DNA from: Gracilinema caldarium
Lineage (GTDB): Bacteria; Spirochaetota; Spirochaetia; Treponematales; Breznakiellaceae
NCBI RefSeq assembly: GCF_029265695.1
Contig: NZ_JAJUHW010000001.1
Span: 112,992-176,991 of the forward strand
Direction: 5' to 3'
Length of the DNA stretch: 64,000 nt
Shown here: piece by piece, positions 1-7,290 of the stretch
How the letters are laid out: every line of letters begins with the position of its first letter
How positions within the stretch are numbered: the first letter of the stretch is position 1
The notes under the pieces: model-generated
Databases searched by the model: none
Told to the model about the DNA's origin: nothing
What the model saw: the letters and a program-made list of their open reading frames with translations, nothing else
Position numbers and translations under genes: made by a program

Positions 1-1017
1 TTCACCCATGGTCCGGTCTATGGCAGGGGGGCTTACCAGGTACCGCTTGGGTACATGCATATCCCCGTCGTATTCCATCATGCCGGCGTAAACAACCTTG
101 GGCCTGCGGATCCGATCAAATTTATCAAAGTCGTCCTGCTCAAAGGCAGCGGTCATTTCTAAGGCCCGGTCTCCGCGGAAATTAAAGTAAATGACCGAAT
201 CGCCGTCTTCTATAGTACCGATTGGTTTTCCATTATCTGCAATGACAAATTCTTTCAGGTCCTGATCGATGATGCCGGGGATTTCTTTGCGGTAGGTTTC
301 CACCGCTTCTCGGGCGGATGAGAACTGGCGGGCAGTTCCCAGCACATGGGTTTTCCAACCCCGTTCTACCATTGACCAGTCGGCACCGTAGCGGTCCATA
401 GTAATCCACATGCGGCCGCCGCCGGAAGCGATGCGGGCATCAAAATCCGCATTATTAAGACTCTTAAGATAGGCCTCGAAGGGGTCAACATATTCGAGGG
501 CGCTGGTCTCGCCCACGTCCCGTCCATCAAAAAGAACATGGATCCGTACCTTTTTTACACCCTCTTCTTTTGCCCGCTGAATCATGGCTTTAAGGTGATC
601 AATATGGCTATGTACGTTGCCGTCGGAGAAGAGGCCGATAAAATGGAGTGCTCCCTTGGAGCCCTTTACGTTGTCAATTACTTCCCGCCAGGCCTTACCC
701 TGGAACATAGCACCGCTTTCGATAGACTTAGAAACCAATGCGGCTCCCTGGGAAAAGACCCGTCCGCAGCCAATGGCATTGTGGCCCACTTCGCTGTTGC
801 CCATGTCTTCGTCGGAGGGGAGTCCTACCGCTTTTCCATGGGCTTTAAGACGGGTATGGGGACTTTTTGCCTTAATCGCTTCTAGATTGTACATTTTGGA
901 ATCGGCGACCGCATCGCCTTCCTTATATTTTCCGTATCCGACCCCGTCCATTATGACAAGTACGACCGGACCTCTGCGGCCTTTCCAGGCCGGATTTTTT
1001 TTGAGGGCTTCCACCAT
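1..1017 (-). CDS. gpmI: 2,3-bisphosphoglycerate-independent phosphoglycerate mutase (partial)
   Basis: Interconverts 3- and 2-phosphoglycerate in glycolysis, using two metal ions and a phosphoserine intermediate. About 339 N-terminal codons are visible; the C-terminus lies beyond the left edge. An alkaline-phosphatase-superfamily metal motif, MDGVGYG, sits near residues 23-29, and the nucleophile motif MGNSEVGH gives the catalytic Ser at about residue 75. A second metal-site block, FNFRGDRA, is also present. The start follows an AAAGGAG ribosome site. The gene is divergent from the PII-like/Mrp operon. Identification is firm; only completeness is unknown. Confidence 0.95.
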
Positions 1018-1071
1018 GGGGAACTCCTTTAATACAAATAGATTACGGAATAAAAACCGGTAATATGGTGA

Positions 1072-1127: not shown

Positions 1128-1157
1128 TTGACAATACCAACCGGTGCCACGGATACT
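1128..1157 (+). promoter_or_regulatory. Promoter of PII-like/EIIA/Mrp operon, leaderless geometry
   Basis: Consensus -35 TTGACA (1128-1133), an 18-bp spacer, and -10 GATACT (1152-1157, four of six matches). Only 6 nt separate the -10 from the ATG at 1164, so transcription would begin at or next to the start codon. There is no Shine-Dalgarno sequence at normal spacing; only GGGG directly adjacent to the ATG. Confidence 0.5.
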
Positions 1158-1163
1158 TGGGGT

Positions 1164-1511
1164 ATGAAACTGCTTGTTTTAATATTAAATGATGAAGCAT
1201 TTCTGGAAGAAATTCTCGAAGCCTATGTAGAAGCGGGTATCTCCCGGGCTACTATTCTTGATTCAGAAGGTATGGGCCGGTTTTTAACCTATGAGGTACC
1301 CCTTTTTGCAGATTTTAAGGATTTTATGAAGGGCAACAAACCTTACAATAAAACTATACTCTCGTTAATCGAAGACGAAGCTGTGCTGGACCAACTCGTT
1401 CCGCTTATAGAAAAAACTGTTGGTTCTTTGGAGCAGCCCGGTACGGGAATTATGTTTACGGTCCCGGTAGATTGGGTCCATGGTATATCTAAAATCTGCG
1501 TACCCGATTGA
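1164..1511 (+). CDS. PII-like (GlnB-superfamily) small signalling protein
   Basis: A 115-residue protein with the beta-alpha-beta layout of PII-like ferredoxin folds. It has a hydrophobic first strand (MKLLVLIL), a helix, a strand ending in GMGRF where the T-loop begins, and a C-terminal [10 protein letters not shown] segment resembling the GDGKIFVIPV core of PII proteins. The canonical uridylylated T-loop tyrosine motif is not seen, so this is a PII-like rather than classical GlnB protein; the ligand is unknown. It is the first gene of the EIIA/Mrp operon, with 26 bp to the next gene. That position suggests control of cation transport (inference). The ATG at 1164 is preferred over the upstream TTG because conserved strand 1 begins there. 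Confidence 0.7.
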
Positions 1512-1537
1512 GCAATAAATAAAAAGGAGAGTGAGCC

Positions 1538-1993
1538 ATGGTCGATTTTTCAGGAATATTAAATGCTTCGTGTATTGCAATAGACGTGGATGCAAATAGC
1601 CGCGAAGAGGTTATCCGTAAAGCTTTAGAGCTCTTACAGCATGGACAAAAAATAACTCAGCCGGAGACTATCTATCATGATATTATGGCCAGGGAACAGC
1701 TTGCGTCTACAGCTATTGGAGAGGGTATTGCGGTTCCACATGCGCTAAGTGATTCTATGCAAAGTACGGTCATGGCGGTCATCCGGCTAAAACATCCTAT
1801 AGATTTTAATGCCCCCGACGGTAAACCGGTGGATCTCTTTTTTATAATGGCAGGTCCAAAAAATGATACGGCATACCATTTAAAGCTCCTTTCCCGGCTT
1901 GCTCGGCTGCTTCATGATCCCCATTTTCGGGAACAGGCTCGTTCAGCCGCCACTAGAGAAAACCTTGCCGCCCTGCTTTTAGAAAAAGATTAG
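1538..1993 (+). CDS. ptsN: PTS EIIA domain protein, PtsN (EIIA-Ntr) type
   Basis: A 151-residue stand-alone EIIA domain of the fructose/mannitol/Ntr family. The phosphorylatable His lies in GEGIAVPHA (about residue 68). The single-domain form, with no EIIB or EIIC genes nearby, fits a regulatory PtsN rather than a sugar carrier. In enterobacteria EIIA-Ntr controls K+ transport systems; here it sits between a PII-like gene and antiporter subunits. A similar role for the Mrp complex is an inference. A strong AAAGGAGAG ribosome site precedes the ATG, and mnhE starts 13 bp after the stop. Confidence 0.85.
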   Translation: MVDFSGILNASCIAIDVDANSREEVIRKALELLQHGQKITQPETIYHDIMAREQLASTAIGEGIAVPHALSDSMQSTVMAVIRLKHPIDFNAPDGKPVDLFFIMAGPKNDTAYHLKLLSRLARLLHDPHFREQARSAATRENLAALLLEKD

Positions 1994-2006
1994 GAGAGCT
2001 CTATTG

Positions 2007-2525
2007 ATGGAAACAAAAAAGAGTCTCTTATGGAACCTGATACGATATTTTATCACCGTCATTTTCCTTTTTATTTGCTGGATGCTTTTTTCTGCAACCC
2101 TGGATTTTCCCTATGTAATGATAGGCTTGGTGGGATCCCTAGTTATCTCCCTTTTTGTTTTTAATGTGTTTATAGAACCTCACGAAGCGGGCCGCAGATC
2201 CGTTATCCCCCGTCTTTTGCCTCTCCTCGGGTATTTCCCTTTGCTCATTCGTGCTCTTTATATTGCAAGTTTTAAAATGCTCGGTGCGGTTTTAACCGGA
2301 TCTATACAGCCCGGTATTGTACATTTTAAAAGCAGGCTCCGATCTGATTTGGCGAGGGTTGTGCTTGCTCATTCTATTACCTTTAGTCCCGGAACTATAA
2401 CCATGGATCTCGATGAGGACCATTATGTAGTTCATTGGATGTTCGCCAGCACCCGTCACTCAAAACAGGCAGGTTCTGAAATTAAAGATGCCTTGGAAAT
2501 TCAACTACGGAAAATTTGGACATGA
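2007..2525 (+). CDS. mnhE: Mrp/Mnh antiporter subunit E (MbhA-like)
   Basis: A membrane protein of 172 residues. Two hydrophobic N-terminal segments are followed by a cytoplasmic domain with the family pattern HSITFSPGTITMDLDED. MrpE belongs to the multisubunit Na+(Li+,K+)/H+ antiporter and is thought to help assembly or stabilise the complex. ATG 2007 is chosen over TTG 2004 because of spacing from AGGAG at 1992. The stop overlaps the next ATG (ATGA), indicating translational coupling. Confidence 0.88.
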   Translation: METKKSLLWNLIRYFITVIFLFICWMLFSATLDFPYVMIGLVGSLVISLFVFNVFIEPHEAGRRSVIPRLLPLLGYFPLLIRALYIASFKMLGAVLTGSIQPGIVHFKSRLRSDLARVVLAHSITFSPGTITMDLDEDHYVVHWMFASTRHSKQAGSEIKDALEIQLRKIWT

Positions 2526-2800
2526 AACACGAGATTTATTTAGTGACGAGCTGGGTATTTATCATTTGTATTGGGCTTGCCATTATTCGGCTTTTGCTCG
2601 GCCCCCTGGGTGCTGACCGGCTTGTTGCTCTCTCTGTGATTTCTTCCCTTATTTTGGCTCTCCTCGTCATGTTCGGAACTCAGGAAGGGCGGCTTCTGTA
2701 TCTGGATGTGGCTCTTCTTTATGATGTATTTGGCTTTTTGGGAATCTTGGCTATAGCCCGATTTTTTAAAGACAAAGAATCCGGAGACCGGAGGTTTTAA
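2522..2800 (+). CDS. mnhF: Mrp/Mnh antiporter subunit F (MbhB-like)
   Basis: A 92-residue protein with three hydrophobic helices and the family signature LLGPLGADRLVALSVISSL, followed by YLDVALLYDVFGFLG. It is a small structural subunit of the Mrp complex. The ATG overlaps the mnhE stop, and its own stop overlaps the mnhG ATG (TAATG), so E, F and G are coupled. Confidence 0.9.
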   Translation: MKHEIYLVTSWVFIICIGLAIIRLLLGPLGADRLVALSVISSLILALLVMFGTQEGRLLYLDVALLYDVFGFLGILAIARFFKDKESGDRRF

Positions 2801-3117
2801 TGTTACTTTTGATCGATATACTTTCCATGGCGATTGCCCTTTTAGCCTGTGTTTTTGCTATTGCGGGGACGCTAAGCCTTTTTCGCTTTCCAGATTGCTA
2901 TACCCGCTTGCAGGGCTCTTCCCTTGCTAGTTCTACCGCTCCTTTTACCATCTTTTTTCTGAGTCTTATTAATGCTGCAGATATTGCGTCGGCATTCAGA
3001 ATCCTTTTACTCATGCTCTTTTTCTTGGTGTCCTCTCCGACTACGAGCCACATTATTGTTCGCTATGCATGGTATTCGGGGGTGATACCCTGGACTAAAA
3101 AAGGACAAAAACCATGA
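2800..3117 (+). CDS. mnhG: Mrp/Mnh antiporter subunit G (MbhC-like)
   Basis: A 105-residue protein with three membrane segments and the MrpG pattern GTLSLFRFPDCYTRLQ plus a C-terminal FFLVSSPTTSHIIVRYAW. Small subunit of the multisubunit cation/proton antiporter. It overlaps both neighbours. Confidence 0.9.
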   Translation: MLLLIDILSMAIALLACVFAIAGTLSLFRFPDCYTRLQGSSLASSTAPFTIFFLSLINAADIASAFRILLLMLFFLVSSPTTSHIIVRYAWYSGVIPWTKKGQKP

Positions 3118-3344
3118 TTACCGTTCTATTGCTCTTTGTCCTTATTGGCTCCGCGTATGCCTTATTTTCCCGGGACTTATTGCATGGAACTATTGCCCTT
3201 TCTATGACCAGTGTCGTTTCAGCGCTTATATTTTATTTGCTCCATGCACCGGATGTGGCAATTACAGAGGCTGCAGTTGGCGCAGGCTTATCCACGGTGA
3301 TATTTCTCTGGGTTATTAAAAACACAAAACGGAGCGATCCATGA
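3114..3344 (+). CDS. MbhD-like subunit (DUF4040), equivalent to part of the MrpA C-terminus
   Basis: A 76-residue hydrophobic protein. Its block HAPDVAITEAAVGAGLSTV is the hallmark of the MbhD/DUF4040 domain. In conventional Mrp systems this domain is fused to the C-terminal end of the large MrpA subunit; in archaeal membrane-bound hydrogenases it is the separate MbhD subunit. Here it is separate, as in the hydrogenase module. It overlaps mnhG and the following gene by 4 bp each. Confidence 0.82.
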   Translation: MITVLLLFVLIGSAYALFSRDLLHGTIALSMTSVVSALIFYLLHAPDVAITEAAVGAGLSTVIFLWVIKNTKRSDP

Positions 3345-4072
3345 TCCGAATAATGGGACTTGGTAGTGTGCTGCTTTTGCTCGTTGTGCTAGGACCAATG
3401 ATTATACCCGATGAGTCGTGGCCAGAGGTTAACCGGAATTTCCTTGCTTTACGGGGGCTTGATGATACGGGAGCAAACAATCTGGTCTCCGCTATATATT
3501 TGGGCTACAGAGCCTATGATACGATCGGGGAAACAATAGTGCTCCTTGCTGCTGTAGCGGGAGCTCTGTATCTTATTACATCCGTATCCCCATCTGCTCA
3601 AGGGCCTGTAAATATCACAATACTTGACTCTATTGAGAAAAAAAAACATGCAACACGAACAAACGTTATTAGTATGACGACGGGGAAGCTTGCTCCGGTA
3701 GTCATGCTGTTTGGCTGGTACGTTATGTTTTTTGGACACCAATCCCCAGGGGGCGGGTTCCAGGGCGGAGTCGTTCTCGCCTCGGGGCTCCTTTTTATCG
3801 CCCTCGGGAGGGAAAAGCGTCAGGCTGCATCGATTATCACTAAAGAAAGTCTGCATACTATAGAAGTAGGTTCGCTTTTTGCGATTCTTTTTATGGTCTT
3901 TATACCACTGTTCTTTGGAGCCTTTGTATTAGAAAATCCTTTTGTTTCCGCGGAGATCACCATACCCAAAGTCTTGTATATTATAGGTTTTAATGTAGCC
4001 ATAGGCCTTAAGGTCGGTTCAGGGCTGGCGCTGCTTGGCCTTTTAATGATGGACATGAAATATGATGATTGA
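3341..4072 (+). CDS. mnhB: Fused MbhE-like + Mrp/Mnh subunit B (MbhF) protein
   Basis: A 243-residue protein combining two modules. Residues 1 to about 95 resemble MbhE (signal-anchor-like helix, then YRAYDTIGETIVLLAAVAGA). Residues about 110-243 are MrpB (GWYVMFFGHQSPGGGFQGGV, then further helices). The reading frame runs unbroken across the junction. In the Thermococcales hydrogenase module these are separate adjacent genes, MbhE and MbhF. The downstream mnhC ATG overlaps the stop. Confidence 0.82.
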   Translation: MIRIMGLGSVLLLLVVLGPMIIPDESWPEVNRNFLALRGLDDTGANNLVSAIYLGYRAYDTIGETIVLLAAVAGALYLITSVSPSAQGPVNITILDSIEKKKHATRTNVISMTTGKLAPVVMLFGWYVMFFGHQSPGGGFQGGVVLASGLLFIALGREKRQAASIITKESLHTIEVGSLFAILFMVFIPLFFGAFVLENPFVSAEITIPKVLYIIGFNVAIGLKVGSGLALLGLLMMDMKYDD

Positions 4073-4406
4073 CAGAATCCTTTTACTTGGCCTTTTTCTC
4101 CTGGGCTTTTACGGTCTTGCGGTACAAAAAAACTTGGTAAAGAAAGTATTTGCCCTTTCAATTCAAAATGCCGCAGTGGTATTGCTTTTTATCCTGGAGG
4201 GAGGCCGTATCGGTACGCACGCCCCTTTGGTTGTGGAGGGCTCAAAAACTTATGTAGATCCGGTACCCCAGGCGCTGATGCTCACCGCCATTGTGGTCGG
4301 GGTCTGTGTGAGTGCCCTGGCACTCGCATTGGTGTACCGCCTTTTCCGGGAGTACCAAACTCTTGATGTAGAAGAAATCCAGAAAAGGGCAAACAATGAG
4401 AAGTGA
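4062..4406 (+). CDS. mnhC: Mrp/Mnh antiporter subunit C (NuoK-like)
   Basis: A 114-residue, three-helix protein homologous to NuoK. It carries the MrpC patterns GFYGLAVQKNLVKKVFALSI and DPVPQALMLTAIVVGV. It works with the D subunit in cation/proton translocation. It overlaps mnhB by 11 bp and mnhD by 11 bp. Confidence 0.9.
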   Translation: MMIDRILLLGLFLLGFYGLAVQKNLVKKVFALSIQNAAVVLLFILEGGRIGTHAPLVVEGSKTYVDPVPQALMLTAIVVGVCVSALALALVYRLFREYQTLDVEEIQKRANNEK

Positions 4407-6111
4407 AGATCTGGTTATTCTAGAAATAATGCTACCTTTGGTCGGCGCTTCTTTTTGTTTTCTTGCAAAACTGATACATGCTCCGAAGGTTCAGAAAGGT
4501 CTTGAATGGATAGGGGGCATTGTTGGCCTTGCAATACCACTAGGTCTTTTATTTCTTTTATATGAACCTGTCAAAGAGGGGCCCCTGCGTTTTTTTGTAG
4601 GAAACCAGCATGAAACCATTGGCATAGAGATTCGTTTTGATGGGATGAGCTGGCTTCTTGGAATGATGGGTTTTATCAGTGCCTTGAGTGCCTGGCTCTT
4701 TTCGCGCAGTTCAGGACCGGACTCTCCAGTATTTTCCGCTTTGTTTCTTATACAAACCTTTGCGGTGACCGCAACTGCTGTCTCAGCCGATTTATTTAAC
4801 CTATTTGTCTGTTTTGAAATTCTTGGTATTGCTTCCTATGCTCTCACGGCTTTTTCAGGAAAGGGCCGGGCCTTTATGGCGGCCTTTAGCTATATGGCGG
4901 TGAGTTCCTCTGCTATGGCTATTTTTTTGTTTGGTGTTTTTGGTATTTACCGGATTACCGGCTCTCTCTCTTTTGATGCAATTGCAAGCTATATAGTTTC
5001 CGTTAATACAGAAAGCCAGATTGTGGGCATTGGTTTATCCCTGGTTTGTATTGTGGTGGCCACTGCTGTCCGTGTGGCGATCTTGCCCGTTTATGGCTGG
5101 CTCCCTGAGGCCCATGCATCTGCTCCCCATGCAATATCAGCTGTTCTCTCCGGTGTGTTGATAAAGGTGCCTCTTTTTGCGCTGGGGCGATTTTTGTTCC
5201 TGCTCATGGCAACGGTTTCTTCAGTAGATATTGTTTTTAAGGAAATCCTGGAAATCCTGAAATTTACAGGAACTCTCACCGCCCTCGTAGCAGTTATTTT
5301 TGCCCTTTCCCAGCGGGAGGCAAAGCGGCTTTTAGCCTACCATTCTATCAGCCAGATCGGATATGTGGTAAGTGCCTGGGCTATGGCGAGTCCTGTGGCA
5401 ATAGCTGCCGCATGGCTCCATGCCTTTTATCATGCTCTCTTTAAGGGTCTCCTCTTTCTCAGTGTGGGATCAGTTACCGATGCAGCAGGCTCTAAGGATG
5501 TGTATGCTGTCCGAGGTGCATATAGAACCGGATTTATTCCTACCATGAGCTTTTTTATTGGGGCCCTTTCAATTTCAGCCCTCCCTCCTTTTAACGGATT
5601 TGCAAGTAAGGCCGCGGTTTCTTCACTGCATAAGGGAACATGGGAATATGTTATCCTGAGTCTTGCGTCGATCGGAACCGTCGCTTCTATGATCAAATTA
5701 AGCAGAATATTTCTCGGAAGACCGAAACCCAGGAACGATGTAGCAGCAGAAGCTGAATGGTCTGGAACACCTCAACGGATAAGAGGCTTTTGGTTTAAGG
5801 TTTCATTGCTTATATTCTCTGCTGCCTGTGTTGTCACAGGTCTTTTTGCTCCCAAGATAGGGGCTCTGGCAGGGCATTTAACAGGTACAGATTACAATCC
5901 GGTACCAGTATCATTATTTTCCGTACCAGCTTTGCAGGGTGCGTTAATGCTCCTTGTTCAAGGGGGCTTATTATATCTTTTTGTCGTAAGCAAACCGGGA
6001 AAAACGATCACCCATGCAATAGAAGAACGACGTCCCAGCTTTGCAGGGCTTCTGTTTGCTTTTTCCCTTGCCCTCGGTGCGCTGGGAGCGCTTGTTTTGT
6101 TCCGTCATTAA
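4396..6111 (+). CDS. mnhD: Mrp/Mnh antiporter subunit D (NuoN/NuoM-like, MbhH-like)
   Basis: A 571-residue polytopic proton/cation-translocating subunit of the NuoL/M/N family. Visible family blocks are FNLFVCFEILGIASYALTAF (with the membrane glutamate), YGWLPEAHASAPHAISAVLS, KRLLAYHSISQIGYVV and FYHALFKGLLFLSVGS. It is the only large antiporter-type subunit in the operon, since no MrpA/NuoL-type gene is present. It ends the operon and is followed 9 bp later by the stop of the convergent SpoIIE gene, with no obvious terminator. Confidence 0.93.
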   Translation: MRSEDLVILEIMLPLVGASFCFLAKLIHAPKVQKGLEWIGGIVGLAIPLGLLFLLYEPVKEGPLRFFVGNQHETIGIEIRFDGMSWLLGMMGFISALSAWLFSRSSGPDSPVFSALFLIQTFAVTATAVSADLFNLFVCFEILGIASYALTAFSGKGRAFMAAFSYMAVSSSAMAIFLFGVFGIYRITGSLSFDAIASYIVSVNTESQIVGIGLSLVCIVVATAVRVAILPVYGWLPEAHASAPHAISAVLSGVLIKVPLFALGRFLFLLMATVSSVDIVFKEILEILKFTGTLTALVAVIFALSQREAKRLLAYHSISQIGYVVSAWAMASPVAIAAAWLHAFYHALFKGLLFLSVGSVTDAAGSKDVYAVRGAYRTGFIPTMSFFIGALSISALPPFNGFASKAAVSSLHKGTWEYVILSLASIGTVASMIKLSRIFLGRPKPRNDVAAEAEWSGTPQRIRGFWFKVSLLIFSAACVVTGLFAPKIGALAGHLTGTDYNPVPVSLFSVPALQGALMLLVQGGLLYLFVVSKPGKTITHAIEERRPSFAGLLFAFSLALGALGALVLFRH

Positions 6112-6120
6112 CAGGGAATG

Positions 6121-7290
6121 TTAAAAACGGATATCCACCATGGTGATATCATCGGCCAGATGGGATTCACCGATCCAGCGATTTACTTCCTCATCGATCC
6201 GTTGCGATATTTCAGAGAGGGGTGTTTTATATAGTCCCCTCAAAAGTTCAATGGTTTTTTCTTCTCCGTAGCGTTCGCCGAAGGGATCGGTCATATCGGT
6301 TAGACCATCGGAATATGCGGTGATTCTGAGCCCCTTCACGATGGGGAGTGAAATTGGCGCTTCGTTCACGAGTTTTTCTTCGATACCCAGGGGCGGTAGG
6401 TTTGGCCGGGCAATTTTACAAGCGATTTTCTTTTCTTCTTCCTGGGGAATAAAAACGAGAACCGGAGAGAAACCGCAGTTGTGAACTTCCACAGAGTTTG
6501 CATCAAAATCGATATAGAAGAGTACGGCGGCAACAAATACATCATCGGGATTCACTTCCTTAATCATGGCATTAATAAGCCCCGTGGTTTTGCGCGGATC
6601 TCCTTCATAGGCAAATAATTTAAAGGCTGCAAAAAAGGCTCCCAATGCGGTTGTTGCGAGGGAACCAGAAATGTTTTTACCTGCCACGTCAAAGCATGCG
6701 ACCAGGTACCTGTTGGGGCCGATCCGGGCAGCACGATAAAAATCGCCGCCTACTTCGTGGGCCATGCGGTTATAAAATATGAGCCTGTACCGTGGATCCT
6801 CCGGGATGGGTTTGCTTAAAAGGTATTGCTGTATTTCTCCCGCCCGTCTGAGATCCTGGGCTCGAATTTCGTTAAGGTGCTCCAGCATTTGCCGTAAGTT
6901 TACGATTCCAAGGTAACTGCGATGGTGCTGGACTATGTACCATCCTGGATCATCGCCCTGGGTTTCCTTGAGGCCCTCGGCCACAATACGGTCCACATAA
7001 TCGGTGGCCTCTACGGTTTTGCGGGCCGGAATGACATAGGCGTCCAGGTCTTTCTGCCAGAAACGTTTCCAGGTAGATTCAACAATCTCTTCGAGAACAT
7101 GCCGTGGAACCACCCCGAGGACTGCCCCGTCCCGCTCGATAGGAAGTACTTCAAGCTCTGGCCGGTCAGAAAGGAGCTCCAGGGCCCAGCCTGCTTCAGA
7201 ACCGGCACTAAGAGGTTCAACACAATCGGCAATATAACCTACTTGCAAAGGTGAAAACAGTCTCCCGATATCGCGGGCCTTCGTAGTCAT
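6121..7290 (-). CDS. SpoIIE/PP2C-family serine phosphatase with N-terminal sensor domain
   Basis: A 389-residue protein. Residues 1 to about 150 look like a pair of CBS-like or related ligand-binding modules (VLPIERDGAVLGVV, YIVQHHRSYLGIVNL). Residues about 165-389 form the SpoIIE phosphatase domain, with the metal motifs EVGGDFY, CFDVAGKN, AYSDGLTD and HLADDITMV. Such proteins dephosphorylate anti-sigma-factor antagonists or similar partners in partner-switching pathways; no partner gene is nearby. An AGGAG site precedes the ATG. It converges on mnhD. Confidence 0.85.
   Translation of the reverse strand: MTTKARDIGRLFSPLQVGYIADCVEPLSAGSEAGWALELLSDRPELEVLPIERDGAVLGVVPRHVLEEIVESTWKRFWQKDLDAYVIPARKTVEATDYVDRIVAEGLKETQGDDPGWYIVQHHRSYLGIVNLRQMLEHLNEIRAQDLRRAGEIQQYLLSKPIPEDPRYRLIFYNRMAHEVGGDFYRAARIGPNRYLVACFDVAGKNISGSLATTALGAFFAAFKLFAYEGDPRKTTGLINAMIKEVNPDDVFVAAVLFYIDFDANSVEVHNCGFSPVLVFIPQEEEKKIACKIARPNLPPLGIEEKLVNEAPISLPIVKGLRITAYSDGLTDMTDPFGERYGEEKTIELLRGLYKTPLSEISQRIDEEVNRWIGESHLADDITMVDIRF

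Follow-up and report, generated by a model that had tools for sequence, protein, structure and literature searches.

Why should an operon for a monovalent cation/proton antiporter begin with the genes of two cytosolic regulators? This question is raised by a locus near the start of the window analysed here, a 64,000-nucleotide stretch of the spirochaete Gracilinema caldarium (contig NZ_JAJUHW010000001.1, positions 112,992 to 176,991), in which a PII-like protein and an enzyme IIA (EIIA) protein of the phosphotransferase system (PTS) are encoded directly in front of the subunits of an Mrp antiporter. By identity of the PII-like protein, the nearest named relatives are the Treponema metagenome-assembled genomes (MAGs) M74 (97%) and AS27yjCOA_205 (87%). 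Cation/proton antiporters determine the pH and the Na+ and K+ levels of the cytoplasm, and the means by which bacteria adjust antiport to energy status are mostly unexplained. Our analysis suggests that the first two genes probably encode a dedicated post-translational regulator of the activity of the antiporter encoded behind them.

The operon consists of nine co-directional genes (1164–6111), with the PII-like and EIIA genes first and seven Mrp genes behind them, all present in the order described by the first-pass annotation, which had been made from the sequence alone. The spacing that it gave was confirmed as well: 26 bp separate the PII-like stop codon from the EIIA ATG, and 13 bp lie between the EIIA stop codon and mnhE, given a start of mnhE at ATG 2007. 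The genes after mnhE overlap, with mnhE and mnhF sharing an ATGA at 2522–2525. The operon features are as follows.

1164..1511, + strand: PII-like protein, 115 aa (Pfam P-II, E=7e-5, 23.6 bits; AlphaFold model; Foldseek PII/GlnK)
1275..1355, + strand: T-loop region of the PII-like protein, residues 38–64, including Tyr61 (conservation; Tyr61 tracks Mrp linkage)
1538..1993, + strand: PTS EIIA of the fructose/Ntr superfamily, 151 aa (PTS_EIIA_2, 1.4e-39)
2007..2525, + strand: mnhE/mrpE (MNHE, 2.5e-30)
2522..2800, + strand: mnhF/mrpF, starting at ATG 2522 (MrpF_PhaF, 2.6e-14)
2800..3117, + strand: mnhG/mrpG (PhaG_MnhG_YufB, 4.8e-16)
3114..3344, + strand: mbhD-type subunit, part of the MrpA C-terminus (MbhD, 1.2e-20)
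3341..4072, + strand: MbhE–MnhB fusion, the end of MrpA plus MrpB (MnhB, 2.2e-21; MbhE, 4.5e-6)
4062..4406, + strand: mnhC/mrpC (Oxidored_q2, 1.5e-23)
4396..6111, + strand: mnhD/mrpD (Proton_antipo_M, 3.1e-46)

We searched with the PII-like protein and obtained 80 loci, mostly from Spirochaetota, with others from Aerophobetes, Fermentibacteria/Aegiribacteria and Chitinispirillum as well as from a single MAG assigned to Deltaproteobacteria. Among loci whose sequence extends far enough downstream, EIIA follows the PII-like orthologue in 74/77, MnhE in 71/75 and MnhD in 48/52, and the PII–EIIA spacing is mostly −8 to +5 bp. The first-pass annotation had named as fatal to its idea that homologues should never co-occur with Mrp genes, which is clearly contradicted by the MnhE count. 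The neighbourhood search across spirochaetes that it proposed, made here in 392 Spirochaetota genomes, each at least 90% complete, gave the same picture: of 41 sequences scoring as clear orthologues (over 110 bits), 38 are followed by MnhE at a distance of about 1 kb. Cultured relatives with the operon are Breznakiella homolactica RmG30 and Sphaerochaeta halotolerans. The same operon is present in MAGs of Aerophobetes, Fermentibacteria/Aegiribacteria and Chitinispirillum, and chance proximity was rejected because the order is conserved across phyla. Since MnhE loci without a PII-like neighbour are common in Spirochaetota, the pair marks a subset of Mrp operons. Two variants retain the linkage in another form. 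At locus L078, PII and EIIA are encoded as one protein ahead of mnhE, and at L054 PII directly precedes mnhE while an antiporter-like membrane protein with a C-terminal EIIA, the membrane part of which gave no Pfam match, follows mnhD. Such antiporter-like proteins with a C-terminal EIIA and an intact histidine were seen near PII loci twice (L054:14721-16586, + strand; L102:1175-3283, − strand).

More distant PII-like relatives in Spirochaetota were read individually, and these recur beside antiporters of other families. EIIA–PII fusions of ~275 aa adjoin a Na_H_Exchanger (PF00999) gene in L089–L092, L100, L102, L109–L112, L114, L115 and L127, and in L113 the fusion is one gene away from it; such genes have unfused versions as neighbours in L093, L094 and L099. 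PF00999 was confirmed by Pfam in L089, L092, L093 and L099, and the other exchanger calls come from a profile built on those. Other Mrp operons carry EIIA and PII genes internally, flanked by mbhD and mnhB in L098 and L108 and by pieces of mnhB in L157. A fusion accompanies an exchanger in Fermentibacteria/Aegiribacteria (L151, L152 and L155) and in L158, and PII alone does so in Aerophobetes (L153 and L154). The reading frames of L095 are interrupted, and L116 lies at a contig edge. The model of the fused protein had a pLDDT of 91.8, and the structure search gave only EIIA-like matches among the matches listed; the PII nature of the C-terminal half rests on hidden Markov model scores of 35–82 bits, a weak Pfam P-II match (L110) and the predicted β–α–β–β–α–β order. 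In the phylum of genome G397, where a relative was present in 18/284 genomes, most of the EIIA-linked relatives adjoin Mrp or exchanger genes (L044, L158, L161 and L162).

A different P-II-domain protein of 200–230 aa lies beside DUF1538 in 12 loci (L101, L103, L117–L125 and L156). Pfam confirmed DUF1538 in L101 and P-II in L101, L118 and L122, with L117 just under the P-II cut-off; the P-II domain of this protein is C-terminal, with no domain assigned to the N-terminal half. In another phylum, PII-like proteins are encoded beside VKOR-DsbA/thioredoxin fusion genes (L166, L168 and L170), a different partnership.

What kind of PII protein is it? The AlphaFold2 model (pLDDT 79.6 overall and about 90–95 in the core, with the loop poorly modelled) has the order β–α–β–(loop)–β–α–β of a ferredoxin-like PII core with a T-loop, which places the protein in the PII superfamily, and Foldseek matched it to PII/GlnK structures with a probability of 1.00. 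The Pfam score is just below the 25-bit gathering cut-off. Upon profile alignment to 2eg1/3o8w, Gln39 is replaced by Phe40 and Lys90 by Ile96, and the C-terminal arginine pair is missing. In GlnB, Gln39, Lys90 and Arg101/103 hold ATP/2-oxoglutarate. By both score and ligand residues, the protein thus falls outside the canonical PII (GlnB/GlnK) proteins, one of which is encoded separately in the genome. As the ATP/2-oxoglutarate residues are replaced where alignable, nutrient sensing as in GlnB need not be assumed, and the residues suggest that the ligand is likely to be something other than ATP/2-oxoglutarate bound in the GlnB manner, or that there is none. A homotrimer would be expected from the fold, which was predicted as a single chain. 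The protein is 55–84% identical over 62 aligned orthologues, and its most conserved part is the T-loop stretch, with a mean majority frequency of 92% for residues 30–65 compared with 82% for residues 1–29 and 62% for residues 66–115.

The EIIA protein has the PF00359 fold and a GxAxPH motif (GIAVPH), with the phosphoacceptor His68 encoded by the CAT at 1739–1741. This histidine, correctly reported as intact by the first-pass annotation, is kept in 78/79 EIIA orthologues and in all of the EIIA–PII fusions examined. The label ‘PtsN-type’ had to be withdrawn: the protein scores 103.7 bits against the 138.7-bit cut-off of the NCBIfam PtsN equivalog TIGR01419, and passes the more general fruA/IIA subfamily model TIGR00848 (111.9 compared with 103.5 bits). 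The genome encodes two enzyme I (EI) and two HPr proteins, which could phosphorylate EIIA. There are nine PTS_EIIA_2 domains in this genome (G000) for only two EI and two HPr genes, and three of the nine are encoded on the contig that contains the window (C34).

Taken together, the conserved PII–EIIA–Mrp order, the pairs and fusions beside other antiporters and the EI and HPr genes make a dedicated regulator the best reading. In this respect the earlier proposal of a nutrient- or phosphorylation-gated antiporter holds in part, without its GlnB-kind nutrient sensing.

It has to be asked whether such a regulator would act on transport activity at all. The pair might instead control the expression of the antiporter or its assembly and turnover, for example via a transcription factor or a protease. 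PtsN is known to act on KdpD and other regulators too (PMC13104625), and the first position in the operon would suit feedback. We consider this unlikely: Pfam revealed no DNA-binding domain or regulator gene in the operon, the partner antiporters are unrelated in fold and were not seen to share any additional regulator gene, and the conservation pattern of the T-loop fits direct protein contact.

The composition of the antiporter raises a second alternative. Pfam analysis showed that Mrp/Mnh (CPA3) subunits B–G are all encoded, so that the description of the seven genes as all Mrp subunits stands to this extent; missing is the antiporter half of MrpA, which is represented only by C-terminal pieces, MbhD and the MbhE fused to MnhB. 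The missing half is the NuoL-like one, and a search of the entire 3.04-Mb genome assembly for Proton_antipo_M proteins gave MnhD as the single match. From its gene content, the antiporter is therefore an Mrp resembling the membrane arm of the membrane-bound hydrogenase (MBH), and Na+(K+)/H+ antiport is its predicted activity. Like the Mrp/Mnh complexes and the MBH membrane arm, it has subunits E, F, G, MbhD, MbhE–MnhB, C and D in the MbhA–H order of MBH; unlike them, it is preceded by two cytosolic regulators and lacks both a NuoL-like MrpA half and adjoining hydrogenase genes. The PII-like and EIIA proteins could then be structural or accessory Mrp subunits that replace a function of the absent half and respond to no signal. 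Their linkage is as tight as that of the subunits themselves, the T-loop is nearly invariant, and a genome with a single Proton_antipo_M protein would fit such a replacement. This is improbable in our view, as related pairs and fusions accompany CPA antiporters needing no MrpA, a structural role would have no need for the conserved His68, and the many Spirochaetota MnhE loci without a nearby pair do without it.

The T-loop of the PII-like protein also tracks Mrp linkage. Setting aside the orthologues classed as lacking Mrp, 76 of the remaining 77 carry Tyr61; the lone exception, a cysteine in L050, is at a locus whose linkage is undecidable because the contig ends too early. In the four loci with PII–EIIA but without Mrp, this tyrosine is replaced by arginine (L024), lysine (L047), glutamate (L086) or glycine (L088), and it is replaced in two further orthologues without an adjacent mnhE, L106 (glutamate) and L126 (arginine), giving six unlinked orthologues in total. 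Thr94 of the PGTG loop was lost in the same copies as Tyr61. Furthermore, two genomes (JAHIWG and PGXV) hold both kinds, and only the Mrp-linked copy keeps Tyr61. Fisher's test of the four against the 77 gave p = 3e-6, a value that ignores relatedness and the post-hoc choice of the site, and a PII+EIIA tree suggested about three origins of the unlinked state, weakly supported. We read this as tying the T-loop to Mrp, not as proof. L088 retains the flanking mutase and SpoIIE genes described below, as if the intervening Mrp genes had been lost. L126 (4952–11001) encodes PII–EIIA, a second EIIA and two large Proton_antipo_M proteins with no mnhE, possibly another kind of complex. That both genes merely hitch-hike in the operon and serve other targets, their linkage to Mrp being historical, is very improbable, since, although copies without Mrp exist (L024, L047, L086, L088, L105 and L106), copies lacking Mrp have lost Tyr61 and Thr94, and the pair recurs beside unrelated antiporter families, occupies varied positions within Mrp operons and is fused with either domain first.

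How might a dedicated activity regulator work? EIIA would take a phosphate at His68 from phosphoenolpyruvate (PEP) via EI and HPr, and its phosphorylation would report the PEP/pyruvate status, that is, glycolytic energy. The PII-like trimer would bind a small ligand as a second signal, probably not ATP/2-oxoglutarate in the GlnB style. The two, which are fused in relatives, would act jointly and bind Mrp from its cytoplasmic side, in part via the PII T-loop with Tyr61. In E. coli, unphosphorylated PtsN binds and inhibits the CPA1 K+/H+ antiporter YcgO (PMC11808508). By analogy, the antiporter would be kept inactive by dephosphorylated EIIA and set free once EIIA is phosphorylated, a sign of control that we propose tentatively and with slightly less than even confidence. 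A wider proposal is possible but somewhat doubtful: EIIA and the PII-like trimer may form a portable two-input gate (PEP-dependent phosphorylation plus ligand) for Mrp and CPA antiporters of unrelated folds in several phyla; the PII-like protein would then represent a novel PII subfamily that binds a ligand of its own, and Tyr61 would be an Mrp contact or a modification site.

Several observations weigh against a dedicated regulator of antiport. The known PII targets covered by a review are trimeric transporters (PMC10710835), and Mrp is not known to be trimeric. The CorC/RCK tail, through which PtsN acts on YcgO, is also lacking in Mrp. In L096 and L097, EIIA and PII occur without a recognised antiporter. 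The Tyr61 test is post hoc, with only about three events in a weakly supported tree. Finally, most PII-only relatives in the phylum of G397 adjoin other genes, such as VKOR-DsbA and BrkB, showing that the PII-like superfamily is not antiporter-only. The idea that all PII-like relatives are antiporter-linked was dropped for this reason; judging from gene neighbourhoods, the antiporter link belongs to the EIIA-linked branch. If dedicated regulation is correct, antiport would be tied directly to the PEP phosphorelay plus a second signal, and the PtsN–YcgO case of E. coli would extend to Mrp complexes. The module offers testable residues (His68, Tyr61 and Thr94) as well as a ligand search.

The start and the borders of the operon are defined by three further features.

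1128..1157, + strand: promoter with a TTGACA −35 box (1128–1133) and a GATACT −10 box (1152–1157) (consensus match and conservation)
1..1018, − strand: 2,3-bisphosphoglycerate-independent phosphoglycerate mutase-like gene, divergent, running off the window (motif in translation)
6121..7290, − strand: SpoIIE-type phosphatase gene, convergent, bounding the operon (SpoIIE, 2e-24)

With 10/12 consensus matches and an 18-nt spacer, the promoter scores best among the promoter-like sites of the region. Shuffled sequence contained no fewer sites of this kind, and the call leans on conservation, TTGACA being kept at the same place in seven relatives (L009, L010 and L012–L016). The first-pass annotation had begun the region at 1128, but TTG 1128 is part of this conserved −35 box and was rejected as the PII-like start in favour of ATG 1164. 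As the −10 box ends only 6 nt 5′ of this ATG, the transcript of this clade may lack a leader; in Sphaerochaeta relatives a GGAAGGA ribosome site is present instead. The divergent gene is presumably mutase-like, as we recognised from a 12-residue stretch of its translation, and a homologue lies upstream of the PII-like gene in 6/80 loci (L010, L013–L016 and L088). A phosphoglycerate mutase acts shortly before PEP, from which the phosphate of EIIA is derived. A SpoIIE homologue is at the same position in L009, L010 and L015, and follows EIIA in L088.

Antiporter control by an EIIA and transporter control by PII proteins are both already known separately. Our literature search, with subscription papers and preprints outside its coverage, found no paper on a PII-like protein with an Mrp antiporter, nor on a PII-like protein, EIIA and an antiporter together, and the combined module, operon-linked or fused, on Mrp/CPA antiporters is apparently undescribed. 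A paper on Salinispira pacifica lists a ‘multicomponent sodium/proton antiporter’, with its regulators unnamed there. The nearest precedent is PtsN–YcgO (CvrA; PMC11808508), in which an EIIA of the same superfamily with a conserved phospho-histidine is likewise paired with a monovalent cation/proton antiporter; phosphorylation-state control has been demonstrated there. The present system differs from PtsN–YcgO in that it includes a PII-like partner, that its EIIA is encoded within the antiporter operon or joined to the PII-like domain, and that its presumed target is Mrp or CPA. PtsN serves several targets, and ptsN lies outside the ycgO operon. PII proteins and the PII-like SbtB bind and block transporters directly, and in both GlnK–AmtB and SbtB–SbtA the PII-fold protein is encoded beside the membrane transporter (PMC10710835), as here. 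Their demonstrated targets are trimeric ammonium and bicarbonate transporters, in contrast with the multi-subunit antiporter, the EIIA partner and the different T-loop and ligand-site residues of the present system. A third comparison is with the DUF1538 system UmpAB, an experimentally demonstrated Na+(Li+,K+)/H+ antiporter (PMC5484666). The P-II-domain protein beside the DUF1538 genes of Spirochaetota is closer to canonical P-II and without an EIIA partner, yet it makes DUF1538 a third antiporter type accompanied by a PII-fold protein.

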